Source: Lentibacillus cibarius (GTDB lineage: Bacteria; Bacillota; Bacilli; Bacillales; Amphibacillaceae). Taken from it: a DNA stretch of 49,419 bases. Positions 3,779 to 36,867 of the stretch are shown in pieces. Where the stretch lies: positions 1 to 49,419 of the forward strand of contig NZ_VCIA01000002.1 of NCBI RefSeq assembly GCF_005887555.1. The letters run 5' to 3'. Within the stretch, counting starts at the first letter, position 1; every line of letters starts with the position of its first letter. A program made the position numbers and the translations under genes. The notes below the pieces were generated by a model, which was not told the origin of the DNA, searched no databases, and saw only the letters and a program-made list of their open reading frames with translations.

Positions 3779-5457
3779 AGTATGTGTCAATCTTTTCTCG
3801 ATGTGGTTGTCACACCAATATATTTGGCACTCTATTTTTGTACACGTTTTCCGGCTACCGCGCTGTCGCTTGGTGGCCTGCATGTTTTCGTCACGTTCCA
3901 AAACCCGGAACCTGACAAAAACATGCAGGGTATTACCTAAAACTCTTCATCAAGTTTCCTATCGCTGATGAATGGGCTGTATATAAACTGATGGAACCTT
4001 CTTTTGCGCCAATCGATGGGCGTGTTGGCTGATTCAAATACTCCGTCATGCGAACGGTCTTTTCAACGTCTCGCTGCTTGCGTGCGCTTCGTTTTTGGGA
4101 TGTGAGATAAACATCCCGCAACGTGTTATTGAGGATACCCTGTTTTACTTTCACCATAGCTTCACTGCCTTCTACGCTCCAATGCATCCCCCGTCTTTTC
4201 ATCCGGAAAGAAACGCGACGCTGATTGGATTCCATAGCCCCTAAGCCTCGTGCGTCTTCTGGCGGGTCTTCCACTTTCTCACGCCAGTCAAAAATACGAT
4301 CCCAATTGTGCTGAATGTAAGTTCGAAAACCGTTTACCTTTTCTACCTGTTTTGCGTTTTCCAGGGTACTTTCGTATGTATCCAGCCAAAGTATGAACTG
4401 TTGCCAATCGTGTTGTTTTAACGCTTTTCTTATCCCGTCCTTAAATTCACTCTTTTCACCGCCTAATGCCCGATTTAACGCCTGAGCTACATGGTAAGCG
4501 TCAAGTTGATTCAACACGGGATAACGGGACTGGGAAAAGGCTTCCTGGAACCGTTCAGCTGTGTAGCCCTGCCCGCCATCACTATTTGTCACAACCTGCG
4601 TATTCTCCAGCGAATAACCATGGGCCGCATATGACTGCACCTCTTTCCAAAAGTCATCAGTCGGCTTCGTTGTCATGATTACGTGTTGATTGCTGAGTGA
4701 GACCCGTTTGCCATTTTTGACCCAGCCTTCATGCATAATCGCATGCCGGACCTCATGGCTTTTCTTTTTCTTTGTAGAACGGACAAAAACGCCATCTGCC
4801 TCTGTATATAAATAGTCAACTTCTTTTCCCTCCGGAAGGGACGCTGCTTCCTCCAGTTCAGCCGCCAGTTCCACATCAGCCTGGGACTGCGCATCTCCAA
4901 CACGCTTCACGATACTCCCGACTGTTTGATGACTCATCGTTACGGGGGTCCATTCCTTCAAAGTTTGGACTGATGCACGATACGTGCTCTCACTAGCCAA
5001 TTCAGCCACTTTTACCTCCGTCAGGGGACTGTATCGTTGACTTTTCCGAAGACCAGCCCACTCATCAAAGGGATAGTGAGAATCACCTTTCAGGTCATGC
5101 ATTAATGTATGCCGAAAACGAACTGCCCCAAACGTGAATTGAACCGTTTTCCAATCTTCACGCTCGACAGTCCAGCCCAACTTCTGTTTCTCAGCTTTAA
5201 TCACCTTATTAATCTGTGTGAACACTTCCCCCATCTGGGAAGCAAACACCTCATACATATAGAGTCGAATGCTTTCTTCCAAATCAACTAAGTTGTTTGT
5301 TTCCTTTATTAATGCGTATAATCTTGATATAATAGTTTCCATGAGAAGGCCTCTTTCGAAATGTATTTGCCCGTCAAAGCATACATTTATGATAGAGTGC
5401 CTTCTCTTTTTTGACTAGAAAATTGCCTCAGGTGGCCCCGAGAATTATTTTACACAT
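3779..5457 (-). mobile_element. ISLre2-family insertion sequence nested in IS3 orfB
   Basis: The string ATCTGTATGG occurs at both junctions (3769-3778 and 5458-5467) and once in the reconstructed orfB, so it is a target duplication of about 8-10 bp. Inner ends share (T)ATGTGT followed by an A-rich stretch as short imperfect inverted repeats. The element is about 1.68 kb with one transposase. A hairpin built on CCTGCATGTTTT / AAAAACATGCAGG near 3880-3930 follows the transposase stop and may terminate it. Confidence 0.85.
3933..5342 (-). CDS. ISLre2-family (UPF0236) transposase
   Basis: A 469-aa protein, the full length expected for the ISLre2/UPF0236 group. It has the family's N-terminal all-helical region, a central block (YTEADGVFV, then VTNSDGGQGY near residue 255) with acidic residues likely to belong to the DDE site, and the late region with GLGAMESNQRRVSFRMKRRG. 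ATG at 5342 is the only in-frame start near the element's end. It is complete and identical in both passes, so it may be active. Neighbours are the two halves of the IS3 orfB it interrupts. Confidence 0.9.
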   Translation of the reverse strand: METIISRLYALIKETNNLVDLEESIRLYMYEVFASQMGEVFTQINKVIKAEKQKLGWTVEREDWKTVQFTFGAVRFRHTLMHDLKGDSHYPFDEWAGLRKSQRYSPLTEVKVAELASESTYRASVQTLKEWTPVTMSHQTVGSIVKRVGDAQSQADVELAAELEEAASLPEGKEVDYLYTEADGVFVRSTKKKKSHEVRHAIMHEGWVKNGKRVSLSNQHVIMTTKPTDDFWKEVQSYAAHGYSLENTQVVTNSDGGQGYTAERFQEAFSQSRYPVLNQLDAYHVAQALNRALGGEKSEFKDGIRKALKQHDWQQFILWLDTYESTLENAKQVEKVNGFRTYIQHNWDRIFDWREKVEDPPEDARGLGAMESNQRRVSFRMKRRGMHWSVEGSEAMVKVKQGILNNTLRDVYLTSQKRSARKQRDVEKTVRMTEYLNQPTRPSIGAKEGSISLYTAHSSAIGNLMKSFR

Positions 5458-8720: not shown

Positions 8721-8897
8721 CTAAGTCCAATTGTCTCCACTACATCCACATTCTCCGAATTCCCAAAGTTCACCTGACACATGATAATAAGTTGCTAAAC
8801 AGCCTCGTAAATGACAACAGTCACGGCTTGATGAACACATACCACCTGATGTTTTTGCTTTTTTAGAAACATTTTTTTTATTCTGTTCACTTTTCAT
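8721..8897 (-). CDS. 58-aa cysteine-rich peptide
   Basis: ATG 8897 sits 6 nt after AAAGGAGGG, a near-perfect ribosome site, and the frame ends in TAG at 8721. A lysine/asparagine-rich N-terminus of about 18 residues (MKSEQNKKNVSKKAKTSGG) precedes a compact six-cysteine region: C21, C27-C28, C33, C50, C52 (C-x5-CC-x4-C-x16-C-x-C). There is no hydrophobic signal sequence, so the basic part may be a leader for a dedicated exporter or the peptide may be freed by lysis. It lies between tRNA-Cys and the PLA2-like gene. A toxin, bacteriocin or PLA2 partner is inferred; no family is recognised. Confidence 0.7.
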   Translation of the reverse strand: MKSEQNKKNVSKKAKTSGGMCSSSRDCCHLRGCLATYYHVSGELWEFGECGCSGDNWT

Positions 8898-8922: not shown

Positions 8923-8997
8923 TGGAGGTGGCACTCGGGATCGAACCGAGGATTAAGGTTTTGCAGACCTTTGCCTTAACCGCTTGGCTATGCCACC
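8923..8997 (-). tRNA. tRNA-Cys (GCA), CCA encoded
   Basis: All arms fold: acceptor GGTGGCA/TGCCACC, D stem GCC/GGC, anticodon stem AAGGT/ACCTT with loop CTGCAAA (anticodon GCA), T arm CTCGG-TTCGATC-CCGAG, discriminator U73 as required for tRNA-Cys, then encoded CCA. It is 25 nt upstream of the six-cysteine peptide and immediately downstream of a candidate sigma-specific promoter (9015-9045), in the same direction. A plasmid tRNA-Cys feeding cysteine-rich genes is the likely logic. Confidence 0.95.
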
Positions 8998-9014: not shown

Positions 9015-9045
9015 TAAAGAGTTATGAAGGGGCTAAAAAACAACC
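9015..9045 (-). promoter_or_regulatory. Candidate SigO-like promoter of the tRNA-Cys / peptide / PLA2 unit
   Basis: Reading leftward, GGTTGTTTTTT begins at 9045 and TCTTTA begins at 9020, exactly 25 nt later. The same pair and spacing precede the amidase, the 30-aa/YvrJ-like genes and the sigma gene. TCTTTA ends 18 nt before the tRNA. Confidence 0.6.
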
Positions 9046-9071
9046 ACTTTTCAATATTTTTGTTAAAAATT

Positions 9072-9513
9072 TTATCCCACAGCTTTTAAAATACTTTTAG
9101 CAATGGCTGTACTTAATTCCCTCACAAAGGAGGGCTGCTTTAAATGCCACGTATCCACCGCCGAATCCAGAAATAAGTTTTCCAGCAGAATGGCCGGCAT
9201 GTCGGTTTCTCGAAGAACCGAAAAATCGGCTTCTTTTTTGCCTCTGTCCCGTAGACTATACGAAGCATAAAACTCCATGATAGATGCGTGTATGATACGC
9301 TGAATGTCGCCGGTTTTGGTATGGCGGAATCCTGGATAAATATAACTCTCGAACCCTTCTCCTCCACCGGCGTTATGATGGAAAGATACAAACAGATCGG
9401 CATTATGAGCATTGGCCATGCTGGTTCGCTCGCTTAGTCCCACAAAAGTATCCTCCGTCCTGACGTTCCGGGGTCATATCCTCCGTGGCCGGCATCCAAC
9501 ACAATCACTGTCA
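9072..9513 (-). pseudogene. N-acetylmuramoyl-L-alanine amidase (Amidase_3 type), internally deleted
   Basis: ATG 9513 follows AAGGGAGGTG and encodes MTVIVLDAGHGGYDPGTSGR, the first zinc-binding stretch of Amidase_3 enzymes. The frame then stops, but another frame resumes with DTFVGLSERTSMANA, SFHHNAGGGEGFE (second zinc histidine) and ILLENLFLD. The roughly 35 residues expected between these blocks are missing, so a short internal deletion probably caused the frameshift. Both passes agree, so this is real decay. It would have cleaved peptidoglycan, as a phage-like lysis gene. It keeps its own promoter (9538-9568). Confidence 0.85.
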
Positions 9514-9537
9514 TAAAAACACCTCCCTTTTTTCTTA

Positions 9538-9568
9538 TAAAGAAAAGGAAGGAGGCAAAATATCAACC
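9538..9568 (-). promoter_or_regulatory. Candidate SigO-like promoter of the amidase remnant
   Basis: Leftward GGTTGATATTTTG begins at 9568 and TCTTTA at 9543, spacing 25 nt, identical to the three related promoters of the block. It starts just after the stop of the 82-aa gene. Confidence 0.6.
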
Positions 9569-9570
9569 GT

Positions 9571-9819
9571 TTATTCCTTTTTTTCCTGTTCATCTGCTAC
9601 AAAAGCATCGCCACAAGGTACGGTCAGTTCCCGAGAGAAAGCGAAGCCGTTATCAGCGAGTTCAGCCTGTATGGCTTTGATCTTTTTAGCTAATAACACG
9701 CACATATCCTGATAAAATGCCTCATCTTCCCGGGAACAAGAGTCCAAATGCTTGGCCATGGTTAGATAAGTCGTTAATATACGATAATAGCGTTGAATGG
9801 CTTGTTCATGACAAATCAT
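9571..9819 (-). CDS. Hypothetical 82-aa helical protein in the YvrJ-like operon
   Basis: Starts at ATG after GAAAGGGGAAAAGAAG, 16 nt after the YvrJ-like stop, so probably co-transcribed. It is predicted helical: an amphipathic first half (YYRILTTYLTMAKHLDS), a second helix (LLAKKIKAIQAEL) and a charged tail ending EQEKKE. No transmembrane segment and no family recognised. Its place between a small membrane protein and an amidase suggests a lysis or export accessory role; this is inference. Confidence 0.65.
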   Translation of the reverse strand: MICHEQAIQRYYRILTTYLTMAKHLDSCSREDEAFYQDMCVLLAKKIKAIQAELADNGFAFSRELTVPCGDAFVADEQEKKE

Positions 9820-9835
9820 CTTCTTTTCCCCTTTC

Positions 9836-9997
9836 TCATTTCCTATGGTTTCGAATCAGTTCTTTCAGTTCGTCCAGCGTATCGGATAAGTTATTGATCT
9901 TCTTTTCAAAACGCAGCAACAAGTAAGCTGCAATAAAAATAGGGAACCCCACATTTTCCAATAAGGACGTCCAAGCCGATAAGTCAGTCGACATCAT
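9836..9997 (-). CDS. YvrJ-family small membrane protein, 53 aa
   Basis: MMSTDLSAWTSLLENVGFPI, one membrane segment (GFPIFIAAYLLLRF), then a charged coil (EKKINNLSDTLDELKELI). This is the YvrJ arrangement: NVGFPI, a single helix, then EKK..L. In B. subtilis yvrJ is a SigO/RsoA target, and here the gene lies opposite a SigO/RsoA-like pair. Similar single-span proteins are found beside amidases in phage-like lysis cassettes. The start overlaps the end of the 30-aa ORF by 14 nt, suggesting translational coupling. Confidence 0.75.
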   Translation of the reverse strand: MMSTDLSAWTSLLENVGFPIFIAAYLLLRFEKKINNLSDTLDELKELIRNHRK

Positions 9998-10076
9998 TGA
10001 TTCCTTCTTTGGACGGAAATTCCCATGCCGCCACCTTTTTCCGAGGCCGTTTCATTACCCAGTCATGACATTGCAT
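9984..10076 (-). CDS. 30-aa basic small ORF at the head of the YvrJ-like operon
   Basis: ATG 10076 follows AAAGGAGGAAGCACCT, a strong ribosome site, and lies 22 nt after the candidate promoter's TCTTTA. The peptide is basic (MQCHDWVMKRPRKKVAAWEF...) and overlaps the YvrJ-like start. It may be a genuine small protein or a leader whose translation sets YvrJ-like expression. No family recognised. Confidence 0.5.
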   Translation of the reverse strand: MQCHDWVMKRPRKKVAAWEFPSKEGINDVD

Positions 10077-10098
10077 AGGTGCTTCCTCCTTTCTTATC

Positions 10099-10129
10099 TA
10101 AAGAAGCAAAAAGACGTTCAAAATCAACC
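10099..10129 (-). promoter_or_regulatory. Candidate SigO-like promoter of the 30-aa / YvrJ-like / 82-aa operon
   Basis: Leftward GGTTGATTTTGAAC begins at 10129 and TCTTTA at 10104, 25 nt apart, as in the three sister sites. It is placed in the divergent gap facing the sigma-factor gene. Confidence 0.6.
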
Positions 10130-10212
10130 TTTTTTCAAAAAATCCTGTATCCGAACATAAACAAATGCTAATATAGATTTATAGAACGTTTGTTCCCTTT
10201 TTTTCGATAAGT

Positions 10213-10243
10213 GGTTTATTTTTGGGACTTTCATGTCTCTTTA
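10213..10243 (+). promoter_or_regulatory. Candidate autoregulatory promoter of the sigma gene
   Basis: GGTTTATTTTTGGG begins at 10213 and TCTTTA at 10238, again 25 nt apart. It lies inside the longest open frame but upstream of the GTG start preferred at 10262. A positive feedback loop by the encoded sigma factor is inferred. Confidence 0.55.
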
Positions 10244-10261
10244 AATCATGAGGTGATATGT

Positions 10262-10879
10262 GTGAAGGAAAACGACGAGCGATGTCATGAGAAATGCCTA
10301 GCATTCCGGCAGAACCATCCTGAATTCTTTCAGCAGCCGATCATTCAATCGTTTTTACAGGACGAAACCCATTACAAACTTGTGAAACGGGCTATCTGTT
10401 CACCGACTCAGCAAAACATGAAACAAGTGAACGAGGCGTTCCAGACGTTTTATAAACATGTGAAAACGCTGACGTATTTATCGAATGTCATTCACTATAA
10501 TGCGATGAACTTTGATAAAGCCAAGAAAAAACATCGCTATCGCGAAACCTTAACATTGGATCAACCATTGCATGAGGAAAACGATGGGGCTACACACAAG
10601 GACATGCTTTACCAGTCATCGCCGGATATCGCCGACATGATTGCCTGTGAGACAGTGACGGACTGTGTGGAAGACCCCCAATTATATCAAGCCATCGAAA
10701 CCCTGACGCCCAAACAGAAAAGCATTTTAACGCACAAATACGTGCATGGCGTACAAAACAACAACATAGCTGATTTATTCAACGATTCACCGCAAAACGT
10801 ATCCAAGTTGCATCGAAAAGCACTGCAAAAACTAGAAAACCATCTAAAAAAGGAGCAAGATGGCCATGACAACAGCTGA
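10262..10879 (+). CDS. SigO-like alternative sigma factor (sigma-70 family), 205 aa
   Basis: Start GTG 10262, 6 nt after GAGGTG; a longer frame from 10211 would read through the candidate promoter, so I reject it. The middle (TFYKHVKTLTYLSNVIHY, then KKKHRYRETLTLDQPL) looks like the reduced sigma core of YvrI/SigO and UviA-like factors. The C-terminus is a region 4 helix-turn-helix (LTPKQKSILTHKYVHGV, IADLFNDSPQNVSKLHRKAL). It overlaps the next ORF by 20 nt. By analogy with B. subtilis SigO it would need the RsoA-like partner to bind core polymerase and transcribe the opposite YvrJ-like operon. Confidence 0.75.
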   Translation: MKENDERCHEKCLAFRQNHPEFFQQPIIQSFLQDETHYKLVKRAICSPTQQNMKQVNEAFQTFYKHVKTLTYLSNVIHYNAMNFDKAKKKHRYRETLTLDQPLHEENDGATHKDMLYQSSPDIADMIACETVTDCVEDPQLYQAIETLTPKQKSILTHKYVHGVQNNNIADLFNDSPQNVSKLHRKALQKLENHLKKEQDGHDNS

Positions 10880-11057
10880 CGTGGAACAAGCTTTAAAAAC
10901 GTTGGAGCCTAAAATCCAAAAGTCGCTCCATCAAACCGAACAACAGAACCGAGAGGATCTGGAACAGGAGCTAAAAACGAAAATCACGGAATGCTTCTAC
11001 AATGATGTTTTTGAACAGGCGCCGGGATTTTGGGAGTTTGCCGAGCAATTTGATTAA
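10860..11057 (+). CDS. RsoA-like co-sigma / HTH_16-type protein, 65 aa
   Basis: ATG 10860 after AAAAGGAGCAAG, overlapping the sigma gene end. The protein is a short helical unit: LEPKIQKSLHQTEQQNREDL followed by EQELKTKITECFY. This matches the start of sigma region 2-like HTH_16 domains (...PLIKK...DEDLYQEL..KL..). In B. subtilis RsoA supplies the missing part for SigO. Size, position and pattern fit, but the sequence is short, so the assignment is moderate. Confidence 0.6.
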   Translation: MAMTTADVEQALKTLEPKIQKSLHQTEQQNREDLEQELKTKITECFYNDVFEQAPGFWEFAEQFD

Positions 11058-11118: not shown

Positions 11119-11306
11119 AAGGGTGTCATTTGAGTGACGCCCTTGTATAATTAACAAGGCAATATTAATGTTCAGTAAGGGTTAATGAGGTGGGAAAGGT
11201 TCCCCACGCGCTACACATTGTGTCATTACCAGAGATGCAGGTTGCCGTCTGCCATTAACCTTTACTATGAACGGCAGCCCCTTTCTTTCGAGAGAGGGGC
11301 TTTTTC
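11119..11306 (+). ncRNA. Candidate structured small RNA ending in an intrinsic terminator
   Basis: A possible promoter (GTGTCA at 11123, 17 nt, TATAAT at 11146) is followed by about 150 nt rich in stems. There is an outer pairing GTAAGGGTTAATG with CATTAACCTTTAC, an inner GTGGGAA/TTCCCCAC, a pairing GGTTGCCGT with ACGGCAGCC, and a terminator GCCCCTTTCT-TTCG-AGAGAGGGGC plus T5 (11277-11305). The TTGCCGT pairing and the outer stem could be alternative folds, as in attenuators. No coding frame is seen. The role is unknown. Confidence 0.5.
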
Positions 11307-11450: not shown

Positions 11451-11480
11451 ATAACTATAAATGTACTATTTTATGGTTAT
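11451..11480 (+). promoter_or_regulatory. Dif-like inverted repeat / operator upstream of Xer-like gene A
   Basis: Two 11-bp arms, ATAACTATAAA and TTTATGGTTAT (10 of 11 matched as inverted repeats), flank TGTACTAT. The same 30 bp occur at 22925-22954 before the paralog. Arm and spacer size fit a Xer/dif-type core site. The arms also overlap the probable -10 region, so an autorepression operator is the alternative. Confidence 0.5.
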
Positions 11481-11517
11481 ATATTATATTTCAATACATA
11501 AATGGAGAGGGGAAACC

Positions 11518-12108
11518 ATGGCCAAAAACGAACGGATTATCAATGTGCAGCCGTTACGAACAAAAGAGGAAATCGACGAAATGAAATTGGCCATCAAACG
11601 GGGCAACAAAGGGACACCTAAAAGGCCGGAGCTTGCTCAGCGCGATGTATTAATCTTTCTGGTCGGTATTAACACGGGTCTGCGTGTAAATGATATCATT
11701 CGGCTCAAAGTCGGTGATGTAAAGGGAAAGAATCAGTTTATTATTTACGAGGGCAAAACAAATAAGCGCCGTGAAGTTAATATTTCAATGCTGCAGAGCG
11801 AAATAGCGCGCTATACAGAAGGCAGACATCCAGACGAATACCTGTTCAAAAGTCAAAAGGGCGACGGTCACATTACGACAACGCAAGTCTATCGAATACT
11901 GGACGCTGCAGCTGATTTTTTAGATCGGGATGATGTTGGCACGCACACCATGCGGAAAACGTTCGGTTATCACCATTACAAGCAATTTAAAGACGTGGCC
12001 ATTCTGCAGGAAATCTTCAATCATGCAGCGCCAAGCATTACGAAGCGCTATATCGGTATCCGACAAGATGAGATTGACGATACACTGAACGATTTTAGAT
12101 TGGGCTAG
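11518..12108 (+). CDS. Xer-like tyrosine recombinase A, 196 aa (catalytic domain only)
   Basis: ATG 11518 follows GGAGAGGGGAAACC; an upstream in-frame ATG lacks such a site and lies in the promoter. Catalytic residues are all present: R56 (NTGLRVND), K80 (EGKTNKRRE), H143 and R146 (HTMRKTFGYHHY), H169 (IFNHAAPS), Y178 (KRYIG). The usual N-terminal core-binding domain is missing. Such short integrases are common on Bacillota plasmids and may resolve multimers or cointegrates. About 90% identical to the gene at 22992. Confidence 0.85.
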   Translation: MAKNERIINVQPLRTKEEIDEMKLAIKRGNKGTPKRPELAQRDVLIFLVGINTGLRVNDIIRLKVGDVKGKNQFIIYEGKTNKRREVNISMLQSEIARYTEGRHPDEYLFKSQKGDGHITTTQVYRILDAAADFLDRDDVGTHTMRKTFGYHHYKQFKDVAILQEIFNHAAPSITKRYIGIRQDEIDDTLNDFRLG

Positions 12109-22924: not shown

Positions 22925-22954
22925 ATAACTATAAATGTACTATTTTATGGTTAT
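22925..22954 (+). promoter_or_regulatory. Dif-like inverted repeat / operator upstream of Xer-like gene B
   Basis: Identical 30 bp to 11451-11480, in the same orientation. Here it is preceded by TTGACA (22903-22908), placing the left arm over the -10 region of a strong promoter. Confidence 0.5.
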
Positions 22955-22991
22955 ATATTACATTTCAATACATAAATGGAGAGGGGAAACC

Positions 22992-23582
22992 ATGGCCAAA
23001 AACGAACGGATTATCAATGTGCAGCCGTTACGAACCAAAGAGGAAATCGACGAAATGAAGCTGGCTATTAAACGAGGCAATAAAGGGGCACCCAAGCGCC
23101 CGGAGTTGGCCCAGCGTGACGTTCTGATCTTCCTTATCGGCATTAACACCGGGTTACGCGTGAATGACATCATCCGGCTGACCGTCGGTGATGTGAAGGG
23201 AAAGAATCAGTTTGTGATGTACGAAGGCAAGACGGCTAAACGACGTGAGGTCAATGTAAGCATGCTTCAGGATGAAATTGAACGCTATACAGAATGCCGA
23301 CACCCGGGCGAATCCCTGTTTAAAAGCCAAAAGGGTGACGGCCATATCACGACAACGCAGGTCTACCGAATACTGGATGATGCAGCTGACTTTCTGGGGC
23401 GTGATGATGTTGGCACGCATACCATGCGAAAAACATTTGGGTATCACCATTACAAGCAATTTAAAGACGTGGCCATTCTGCAGGAGATATTCAACCATGC
23501 CCAGCCAAGCATCACCAAGCGTTATATCGGGATCCGGAAGGATGAGATCGACGACACTTTGAACGATTTCCGATTAGGGTAA
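22992..23582 (+). CDS. Xer-like tyrosine recombinase B, 196 aa
   Basis: ATG 22992 after GGAGAGGGGAAACC. Same length, start region and catalytic set as gene A: R56, K80, H143, R146, H169, Y178. The two proteins differ by about 10%, mostly away from active residues, while about 90 bp upstream are almost identical. It sits inside a 160-bp inverted repeat. Likely acts on the adjacent inverted-repeat site. Confidence 0.85.
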   Translation: MAKNERIINVQPLRTKEEIDEMKLAIKRGNKGAPKRPELAQRDVLIFLIGINTGLRVNDIIRLTVGDVKGKNQFVMYEGKTAKRREVNVSMLQDEIERYTECRHPGESLFKSQKGDGHITTTQVYRILDDAADFLGRDDVGTHTMRKTFGYHHYKQFKDVAILQEIFNHAQPSITKRYIGIRKDEIDDTLNDFRLG

Positions 23583-35638: not shown

Positions 35639-35669
35639 TAAAGAGTTATGAAGGGGCTAAAAAACAACC
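35639..35669 (-). promoter_or_regulatory. Candidate SigO-like promoter, tRNA-Cys unit (second pass)
   Basis: Identical to 9015-9045. Confidence 0.6.
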
Positions 35670-35695
35670 ACTTTTCAATATTTTTGTTAAAAATT

Positions 35696-36137
35696 TTATC
35701 CCACAGCTTTTAAAATACTTTTAGCAATGGCTGTACTTAATTCCCTCACAAAGGAGGGCTGCTTTAAATGCCACGTATCCACCGCCGAATCCAGAAATAA
35801 GTTTTCCAGCAGAATGGCCGGCATGTCGGTTTCTCGAAGAACCGAAAAATCGGCTTCTTTTTTGCCTCTGTCCCGTAGACTATACGAAGCATAAAACTCC
35901 ATGATAGATGCGTGTATGATACGCTGAATGTCGCCGGTTTTGGTATGGCGGAATCCTGGATAAATATAACTCTCGAACCCTTCTCCTCCACCGGCGTTAT
36001 GATGGAAAGATACAAACAGATCGGCATTATGAGCATTGGCCATGCTGGTTCGCTCGCTTAGTCCCACAAAAGTATCCTCCGTCCTGACGTTCCGGGGTCA
36101 TATCCTCCGTGGCCGGCATCCAACACAATCACTGTCA
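35696..36137 (-). pseudogene. Amidase remnant (second pass)
   Basis: Identical to 9072-9513, including the internal deletion and frame change, so the decay is genuine. Confidence 0.85.
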
Positions 36138-36161
36138 TAAAAACACCTCCCTTTTTTCTTA

Positions 36162-36192
36162 TAAAGAAAAGGAAGGAGGCAAAATATCAACC
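36162..36192 (-). promoter_or_regulatory. Candidate SigO-like promoter, amidase (second pass)
   Basis: Identical to 9538-9568. Confidence 0.6.
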
Positions 36193-36194
36193 GT

Positions 36195-36443
36195 TTATTC
36201 CTTTTTTTCCTGTTCATCTGCTACAAAAGCATCGCCACAAGGTACGGTCAGTTCCCGAGAGAAAGCGAAGCCGTTATCAGCGAGTTCAGCCTGTATGGCT
36301 TTGATCTTTTTAGCTAATAACACGCACATATCCTGATAAAATGCCTCATCTTCCCGGGAACAAGAGTCCAAATGCTTGGCCATGGTTAGATAAGTCGTTA
36401 ATATACGATAATAGCGTTGAATGGCTTGTTCATGACAAATCAT
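36195..36443 (-). CDS. Hypothetical 82-aa protein (second pass)
   Basis: Identical to 9571-9819. Confidence 0.65.
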   Translation of the reverse strand: MICHEQAIQRYYRILTTYLTMAKHLDSCSREDEAFYQDMCVLLAKKIKAIQAELADNGFAFSRELTVPCGDAFVADEQEKKE

Positions 36444-36459
36444 CTTCTTTTCCCCTTTC

Positions 36460-36621
36460 TCATTTCCTATGGTTTCGAATCAGTTCTTTCAGTTCGTCCA
36501 GCGTATCGGATAAGTTATTGATCTTCTTTTCAAAACGCAGCAACAAGTAAGCTGCAATAAAAATAGGGAACCCCACATTTTCCAATAAGGACGTCCAAGC
36601 CGATAAGTCAGTCGACATCAT
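36460..36621 (-). CDS. YvrJ-family small membrane protein (second pass), 53 aa
   Basis: Identical to 9836-9997: NVGFPI, single membrane helix, charged coil. Confidence 0.75.
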   Translation of the reverse strand: MMSTDLSAWTSLLENVGFPIFIAAYLLLRFEKKINNLSDTLDELKELIRNHRK

Positions 36622-36700
36622 TGATTCCTTCTTTGGACGGAAATTCCCATGCCGCCACCTTTTTCCGAGGCCGTTTCATTACCCAGTCATGACATTGCAT
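36608..36700 (-). CDS. 30-aa basic small ORF (second pass)
   Basis: Identical to 9984-10076. Confidence 0.5.
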   Translation of the reverse strand: MQCHDWVMKRPRKKVAAWEFPSKEGINDVD

Positions 36701-36722
36701 AGGTGCTTCCTCCTTTCTTATC

Positions 36723-36753
36723 TAAAGAAGCAAAAAGACGTTCAAAATCAACC
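36723..36753 (-). promoter_or_regulatory. Candidate SigO-like promoter, YvrJ-like operon (second pass)
   Basis: Identical to 10099-10129. Confidence 0.6.
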
Positions 36754-36836
36754 TTTTTTCAAAAAATCCTGTATCCGAACATAAACAAATGCTAATATAG
36801 ATTTATAGAACGTTTGTTCCCTTTTTTTCGATAAGT

Positions 36837-36867
36837 GGTTTATTTTTGGGACTTTCATGTCTCTTTA
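36837..36867 (+). promoter_or_regulatory. Candidate autoregulatory sigma promoter (second pass)
   Basis: Identical to 10213-10243. Confidence 0.55.

Follow-up and report, generated by a model that had tools for sequence, protein, structure and literature searches.

The stretch analysed here (the window, 49,419 bases) is the whole of contig C2 from the 3.66-Mb, three-contig genome of Lentibacillus cibarius, a salt-loving relative of Bacillus. Within it lies a plasmid-borne locus in which a gene for a SigO-like sigma factor and an overlapping gene for a small RsoA-like partner are read rightward, and three further units are read leftward: an operon encoding a YvrJ-family protein, an amidase gene, and a tRNA-Cys gene followed by genes for a cysteine-rich peptide and a phospholipase-A2-like (PLA2-like) protein resembling venom enzymes (Table 1). 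A two-part sequence, GGTT(G/T)(A/T) followed by TCTTTA, precedes each of the four units, and a preliminary description of this DNA had proposed it as the promoter of a plasmid sigma-factor regulon. From the sequence comparisons reported below, that regulon was very probably recognised correctly and is larger than was thought. We place at roughly 0.78 the probability that each of the four pairs serves as a promoter for the sigma factor whose gene lies between them, and that the regulon they drive includes the tRNA-Cys/cysteine-rich unit.

Table 1. Genes and promoter-like pairs of the predicted regulon in the window (aa, amino acids; nt, nucleotides; ORF, open reading frame)
Feature	Position	Strand	Evidence or remark
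Promoter-like pair GGTTTA-N19-TCTTTA before the sigma gene (predicted autoregulatory)	10213..10243	+	18 nt to the GTG at 10262
Promoter-like pair GGTTGA-N19-TCTTTA before the 30-aa/YvrJ operon	10099..10129	-	22 nt to the ATG of the 30-aa ORF
Promoter-like pair GGTTGA-N19-TCTTTA before the amidase	9538..9568	-	23 nt to the ATG at 9514
Promoter-like pair GGTTGT-N19-TCTTTA before tRNA-Cys	9015..9045	-	17 nt to the first base of the tRNA
Second copy of the four promoter-like pairs	35639..36867	.	Plasmid repeat inside the contig
SigO-like sigma factor, 205 aa	10262..10879	+	Pfam Sigma70_r4_2, 32.9 bits
RsoA-like partner, 65 aa, overlaps the end of the sigma gene	10860..11057	+	NCBIfam sigO_reg_RsoA, 50 bits (cut-off 100)
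30-aa ORF, first in the YvrJ operon	9984..10076	-	Preceded by a Shine-Dalgarno sequence
YvrJ-family small protein, holin-like	9836..9997	-	PF12841, 54 bits (cut-off 29.5)
82-aa protein after YvrJ	9571..9819	-	ORF; similar 82-aa ORF behind the same motif in L065
N-acetylmuramoyl-L-alanine amidase (Amidase_3), two frames	9072..9514 (9434-9514 + 9072-9443)	-	PF01520
tRNA-Cys (GCA), CCA encoded	8923..8997	-	ARAGORN; Rfam, 66.4 bits
58-aa cysteine-rich peptide, C-x5-CC-x4-C-x16-C-G-C	8721..8897	-	ORF, sequence pattern
Phospholipase-A2-like protein, 247 aa	7939..8682	-	Calcium loop and HD motif; Pfam PLA2 below cut-off

All four pairs lie where the preliminary description had placed them, the first G preceding the first T of TCTTTA by the same 25 nt at 4 of 4 sites, and, as it had also held, the pair occurs nowhere else in the unit: a pattern scan of the 26.6-kb plasmid returned none besides these four. 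Counted from the last base of TCTTTA, the start of the unit also lies at a near-constant distance (17-23 nt in all four units), a regularity on which that description was silent. Because bases 1-22798 return at 26608-49419 with 99.9% identity, the eight matches in the window amount to four distinct sites; contig C2 is one plasmid of ~26.6 kb written almost twice, with 3,600 bases around the regulon letter-identical between both copies, and two independent regulons are thereby ruled out. The motif was, admittedly, read from these four places in AT-rich sequence, and since it was defined post hoc from the window, its evidential weight rests on other loci. It could thus be asked whether the repeats are due to chance, to T-rich composition, or to the copying of one duplicated promoter. 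However, chance would give 0.09 matches in the window, and eight were not reached in any of 100 dinucleotide shuffles; the spacers of the four sites differ, which argues against a single duplicated promoter; and enrichment at a single spacing is found in 115 other loci (see below). The shuffles and spacing controls rule out a chance origin, and the explanation as a whole is scarcely credible.

The 110 loci with which the window was compared comprise the window itself, 19 loci from the 28 PLSDB plasmid records that match the sigma factor, 70 regions around the stronger sigma hits among the matches listed, and 20 RsoA regions of 51 genomes. These loci were chosen by sigma or RsoA similarity. They are related by descent and not independent, and the module gene profiles were built from members of the same loci, such that counts of loci in which a gene was found include the seeds. 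A sigma factor is present in 109 of them, an RsoA-like gene in 108 and YvrJ in 95, followed by glutaredoxin and S8 peptidase (24 each), PLA2-like genes (22) and Amidase_3 (15). At E<=0.001, sigma matches occur in at least 146 of 199 related genomes, though many of these matches are low-scoring, ordinary sigma factors; among the matches listed, the closest relative (68%) is found in G008, of the same genus, and the PLSDB relatives lie on plasmids of several Bacillaceae genera. Phage records contained no sigma match at E<=1e-5, and the motif-plus-tRNA pattern was absent from the viral_contigs set. However, PHROG families of unknown function match both the sigma factor (81 bits) and its RsoA-like partner (41.7 bits), which shows that virus collections do contain relatives.

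In these loci, SigO/RsoA-like modules of other genera carry the motif again, at one rigid spacing, as expected if it were the promoter of such a regulon. GGTT-N21-TCTTTA was found 14 times in 29 genome loci, against a mean of 0.42 at other spacings, and five times in 15 plasmid loci, against 1.05 (maximum 4). The longer form GGTTG-N20-TCTTTAT occurs 40 times in 107 loci (the 110 minus L056, L064 and L165, window included, as in all 107-locus counts here), against 0-3 at each of 31 other spacings, and GGTTG-N20-TCTTTA occurs 47 times in 115 loci outside the window, against 0-6 at each of 31 other spacings. The two halves can also be read separately: the commonest 6-mers after GGTTG[TA] are TCTTTA (45), CCTTTA (15) and ACTTTA (9), compared with 7, 4 and 5 over six other offsets summed, and those before TCTTTAT are GGTTGT (33), AGTTGT (6) and TATTGT (6), compared with 1, 1 and 4, while GGTTGA precedes TCTTTAT four times in the 115 loci outside the window. 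The three positions following TCTTT are mostly A (82%), T (77%) and A (63%), in this order, at 57 sites. Together, these half-by-half readings yield the consensus (G/A)GTTG(T/A)-N19-(T/C/A)CTTTATA. In L010/L065, the nearest genome relative, the sigma gene has the GGTTGA version upstream.

Sites with a gap of 20-22 that lay -40 to 400 nt before a profile-matched module gene read in the same direction were assigned to the nearest such gene. There are 69 sites with this gap, including the four in the window, in 45 of the 107 loci, and 39 of them could be assigned: 14 to sigma, five each to S8 peptidase and rsoA, four each to tRNA-Cys and glutaredoxin, three to yvrJ, and two each to amidase and PLA2-like genes. 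The five rsoA sites are those of rsoA-yvrJ operons in one group of five close relatives. The preliminary description had named recovery mainly upstream of YvrJ-like genes as what would support it; the sites are distributed otherwise, with yvrJ accounting for only three of the 39 assigned sites versus 14 for sigma. By eye, the first Shine-Dalgarno-preceded ORFs after exact sites include lysozyme-, LysM- and peptidoglycan-binding-like proteins as well as small secreted-type proteins. A secreted-type protein of 131-137 aa, alike by eye, was likewise seen behind the exact motif in L047 (8682-9086, +), L070 (starting near 4117, -) and L211 (4259-4672, -).

Two further searches did not start from the sigma factor. 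The first used the PLA2-like profile; as this profile was built from loci near sigma genes, the nearness of its matches to sigma was not used as evidence. Nine loci were found away from known sigma hits, a tenth region holding the host's short chromosomal protein having been left out. They contain four exact sites at gap 21, in three of the nine loci, against none at gaps 20 and 22 and 0-2 at each other gap, and three of the nine contain a tRNA-Cys. A listed sigma match exists in the genomes of seven of the nine, the three loci with exact sites among them. In L192, an RsoA-like ORF adjoins the PLA2-like gene, and in L194 of G008 the order of motif, tRNA-Cys and PLA2-like gene is the same as in the window, with the sigma gene on another contig. 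The second search looked for the motif with a tRNA-Cys-like sequence behind it in 84,980 species, taking one genome per species, and returned six records, of which ARAGORN called five as tRNA-Cys and one as tRNA-Gln; the latter (Turneriella) has no module genes and is false. Sigma, RsoA-like, YvrJ and glutaredoxin genes lie within 8 kb in four of the five tRNA-Cys loci (L208, L209, L210 and L211; the glutaredoxin of L208 is weak), and the fifth (L212) is the PLA2-like locus of Lentibacillus salicampi, of the same genus as the window. Since L209 and L212 belong to genomes already in the set (G191 and G008) and L208 and L210 resemble L159 by eye, L211 from Rummeliibacillus stabekisii is the most independent of these. 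Over 8 kb, it has five GGTTG sites before five units, namely a 130-aa ORF, a 680-aa ORF, a 137-aa secreted-type protein, a PLA2-like gene and a tRNA-Cys. Positions 1-8000 of L211 hold a sigma/YvrJ/RsoA-like/glutaredoxin operon followed by units with a motif each, including a region that is, by eye, ABC-transporter-like.

If the motif is a promoter or operator, it might nonetheless belong to another regulator, either a host sigma factor or a DNA-binding activator, with the plasmid sigma gene being simply one of its targets. Such a scenario would account for the 30 of 69 sites that lie before genes not recognised as module members, as well as for the existence of loci that carry the module and lack the motif. 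However, two short asymmetric blocks at a rigid spacing, often 14-45 nt before a start, are the target that a sigma factor reads and not a symmetric operator. Furthermore, the strict pattern RGTTGW-N19-TCTTTAT has zero matches in the 3.6-Mb host chromosome; its five sites in the genome are all on plasmid contigs (reversed control, two). The loose motif occurs 12 times in the whole genome, eight times in C2 and twice each in C3 and the chromosome, against three for its reversed control, and no copy was found across the 16.5 kb read around the chromosomal YvrJ gene (C1:1722252, locus L135). The three PLA2-found loci with exact sites (L188, L194 and L195) lie on other contigs of genomes holding a sigma relative, whereas L193 and L196, whose genomes are not among the listed sigma matches, have no exact site. 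Control by another regulator therefore seems unlikely to us, and we favor the sigma factor of the module itself.

Several observations do weigh against assigning the motif to the module sigma factor. Besides the 30 sites without a recognised module gene behind them, 62 of the 107 loci have no site at gap 20-22. None of 500 shuffles on the sigma tree clustered the motif as strongly as is observed, yet it requires 15 changes (29 of 101 rows), which points to drifting specificity or to an overly strict pattern. L211 has a sixth match, of the GGTTTA type, which falls within the 680-aa gene on the opposite strand. The leader of the sigma mRNA would be only ~11 nt under the predicted promoter, the RsoA, PLA2 and holin matches are weak or below cut-off, and profiles for glutaredoxin and S8 peptidase, both of which mark the tRNA-Cys modules of relatives, matched nothing on the plasmid of the window. 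Lastly, the TCTTTA motif is not found before sigO, yvrJ or oxdC in the four SigO-type loci of the set, where GTTTAC...CATTTA, GTTTAC...CACTTA and GTTGAC...CACTTA were read by eye, that is, GTTKAC-N16-18-CAYTTA.

The two regulatory proteins would make up a two-part sigma factor. In the sigma protein, Pfam detects region 4 and no region 2, and NCBIfam sigma70-ECF matches residues 54-195 with 44.9 bits (cut-off 42.9); because that alignment starts at profile position 37 of 165, part of the N-terminal half may be sigma-like. Compared with the SigO-type protein of L156, it is 32% identical over 191 aa, and its small partner is 46% identical over 54 aa to the RsoA of the same locus and matches PRK14082 with 65.8 bits (cut-off 86). 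The partner falls well short of the sigO_reg_RsoA cut-off and is for this reason named RsoA-like, not RsoA. In our interpretation, region 4 of the SigO-like protein would read GGTTG, the RsoA-like partner would read the -10 element TCTTTATA, and both would act together on core RNA polymerase. The pair would raise its own level from the promoter at 10213 and switch on the three leftward units, i.e. the holin-like YvrJ operon, the amidase and the tRNA-Cys transcript. The latter, presumably starting with the tRNA, would run into the cysteine-rich peptide and then the PLA2-like protein. In this scheme, tRNA-Cys would be made when cysteine-rich and probably exported proteins are made, allowing cysteine decoding to keep up, while YvrJ and the amidase may prepare the membrane and wall for release.

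The tRNA-Cys branch of this scheme can be weighed against the tRNA genes of the other modules. Cys is the isotype of 19 of the 24 tRNA genes in the 107 loci, and these 19 are spread across 17 loci; a genome normally has one or two tRNA-Cys genes among several dozen tRNAs. The chromosomal tRNA-Cys of the host, located in a cluster of 14 tRNA genes, is 82% identical to that of the plasmid. PLA2-like genes and tRNA-Cys occur together in 14 of the loci, PLA2 only in seven, tRNA only in three and neither in 83 (Fisher p=5e-10, kinship ignored). In the same order, and with kinship likewise ignored, the counts are 15/8/2/82 for glutaredoxin with tRNA-Cys, 17/6/4/80 for glutaredoxin with PLA2 and 13/8/11/75 for PLA2 with S8 peptidase; all four traits are spread over several branches of the sigma tree. 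Two odd calls were encountered among the module tRNAs: that of L066 (1501-1574) was called as tRNA-Cys with anticodon ACA instead of GCA, and in L050 (2455-2528) a second, odd-looking tRNA-Cys of 48.8 bits stands in tandem behind a good one.

Even with sigma-driven promoters, the tRNA-Cys could serve some end other than translation of the cysteine-rich products: it might be an RNase P/Z processing signal, the relic of an integration site or a general cysteine-codon supplement. Any of these would be compatible with the promoter part of our interpretation, and in both the window and several relatives the predicted transcript does open with the tRNA after a very short leader. In other modules, the tRNA is located between other genes or apart from the PLA2-like gene. 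Among the 22 tRNA-Cys genes of the module loci and the nine PLA2-found loci combined, moreover, only five have an exact motif within 90 nt upstream and five have a near match, with 12 having neither, which counts against a tRNA consistently commanded by the module sigma factor. The five with an exact motif are those of the window, L057, L066, L130 and L194; where present, the exact motif ends 14-23 nt before the tRNA. Among the 12, those of L048, L061 and L070 lie just behind a sigma, rsoA or glutaredoxin gene, with which they may be cotranscribed; others have no evident promoter of this kind. However, a processing signal or relic needs no particular isotype, so the bias toward Cys argues against both, as does the company of cysteine-rich proteins and glutaredoxin. 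The tRNA search of 12 relatives gave 14 matches of 48.8-71.3 bits, compared with a gathering score of 29. On balance, a role outside the translation of these products appears doubtful, and provision of tRNA-Cys for that translation remains the role we presume.

The putative payload is rich in cysteine. In the PLA2-like protein of the window, 165 aa without cysteine are followed by ~82 aa with 10 cysteines, in which the phospholipase A2 calcium loop and the His-Asp of DxCCxxHDxC are both present. Across 20 PLA2-like proteins, 13 positions other than the start Met are invariant, including CG..C and D.CC..HD.C, and positions 160-208 of their profile match solved phospholipases A2 (best E=9e-10). 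The window protein scores below the Pfam cut-offs for PF00068 (18.3/32.1 bits) and PF08398 (18.8/23.9 bits), as do nine of 10 members scanned, hence the label "PLA2-like"; NCBIfam matched none of the 20. Most matches of the PLA2-like profile search belong to a short (~100 aa) chromosomal family, e.g. C1:2894808-2894954 in the host (G000) and in many relatives, which is without the N-terminal part of the plasmid protein. As for the 58-aa peptide, which matched no Pfam, NCBIfam or PHROG family, the core C-x5-CC-x(4,6)-C-x(14,17)-C-(G/S/D)-C is found near the C-terminus in the window, L052, L053, L061, L081, L084, L131 and L192, and L064 is a near-copy of L052. These loci carry tRNA-Cys or PLA2-like genes, or the peptide sits behind the motif; the same loose pattern also matches 11 other, unrelated-looking frames. 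The PLA2-like proteins and the small CC/CGC peptides apparently constitute an undescribed group of cysteine-rich proteins, and the payload would probably be exported.

Taken together, these features suggest that a mobile, self-amplifying, two-part sigma factor may command both a payload and the tRNA-Cys to translate it, in other words, a toxin or bacteriocin cassette with its own decoding capacity and its own sigma factor. This is a tentative proposal, to which we give slightly less than an even chance, with the toxicity of the payload being presumed. If it holds true, a sigma-switched tRNA-Cys and holin-like and wall-cutting proteins, joined in relatives by glutaredoxin and peptidase, would be made alongside PLA2-like enzymes and small CC/CGC proteins. 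Searches of listings of open-licence papers showed no report of such tRNA-Cys/cysteine-rich sigma modules. The tRNA-Cys genes of these modules offer a testable case of a tRNA placed under an alternative sigma factor for a specific product.

Among the other genes of the regulon, the YvrJ protein has a weak PHROG lysis/holin match (22.4 bits). The 30-aa ORF preceding it had no match in Pfam or PHROG family searches, and the 82-aa protein following it had none in Pfam, NCBIfam or PHROG. Small cysteine-containing proteins of 61-82 aa, similar by eye, recur beside the module in the window (9571-9819, -), L065, L066 and L195. The two pieces of the amidase, searched apart, match PF01520 with 77.7 and 20.5 bits (cut-off 27); the two-frame form is found in both repeat copies and is either a broken gene or a shared assembly error. 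The 13.8-kb contig C3 differs from the plasmid by 0 mismatches and 77 gaps in the 4,832 columns compared and, having gaps only in that stretch, is a noisy, unpolished copy of it, which rules out C3 as a second plasmid. Given this overlap and the repeat within C2, claims of size or copy number drawn from the assembly are unsafe. Elsewhere on the plasmid unit, two recombinase-like genes (by eye; 11461-12108 and 22935-23582, +) share 84% DNA identity, and several other stretches are diverged duplicates as well. An Rfam skipping-rope RNA (56.9 bits, 11180-11260, +) follows the RsoA-like gene; it was dropped as a candidate module part, as none was found in the 12 relatives searched.

When compared with known systems, the locus shares features with several of them and coincides with none. 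Like secreted phospholipases A2, the PLA2-like proteins have the calcium loop and DxCCxxHDxC; they differ in their long cysteine-free N-terminal part of no known family. In the TcdR/UviA group of clostridial sigma factors, the -10 element is CTCTTT-like, and UviB is holin-like. As described in PMC4031146, UviA is a small Clostridium sigma factor encoded beside a small gene, UviB, whose role that paper gives as unknown, and controls a bacteriocin or toxin, and members of this group 5 consist of one protein with regions 2 and 4 and recognise a -35 of TTTACA. Here, the -35 is GGTTG, only region 4 is detected by Pfam, and a second small protein is present; membership in group 5 was rejected on the -35 element, and the parallel to UviA/UviB is one of logic. 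SigN (ZpdN) of B. subtilis pBS32 is, according to PMC6751061, plasmid-encoded and self-activating, with a regulon that is mostly plasmid-restricted and leads to cell death. The present sigma factor is similarly plasmid-encoded and is predicted to activate itself. However, the SigN promoters in the rows of Table 2 of that paper share, by eye, a common TTTACGTTT ... CCAGATATAA-like sequence unlike the window motif, and on this comparison the SigN consensus was rejected for the motif; the words SigO and RsoA are absent from the main text of that paper.

The closest parallel is SigO-RsoA (YvrI-YvrHa) of B. subtilis, a system linked to acid stress and known mainly as a single, unusual two-part sigma factor. 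Both systems have a homologous sigma factor, an adjacent small RsoA-like gene and YvrJ in the regulon. YvrJ is reported as a SigO-RsoA target in B. subtilis, as is oxalate decarboxylase, in PMC8103513. In the window, the operon containing the YvrJ-family gene is predicted to start just behind a motif copy, in keeping with the preliminary description; oxdC was not noticed among the neighbouring ORFs, and no profile search was aimed at it. On the sigma tree (midpoint root), the four SigO-type rows (L101 and L156-L158), whose loci exceed the RsoA cut-off (162.7 bits for the RsoA of L156), fall inside the wider set. An identical promoter, however, was rejected from the by-eye comparison of GGTTG/TCTTTA here versus GTTKAC/CAYTTA there, such that the likeness to SigO, which the preliminary description had assumed, stands for protein family and neighbourhood and fails for the promoter. 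From these sequences, the pair in the window would best be called SigO/RsoA-like, its sigma factor not being SigO. The relatives described here appear to form a widespread family with a readable promoter code, which should allow regulons to be predicted by simple pattern. Compared with SigO-RsoA, the system of the window is plasmid-borne, its RsoA-like protein scores below the family cut-off, and its predicted regulon adds an amidase, a tRNA-Cys and cysteine-rich proteins.

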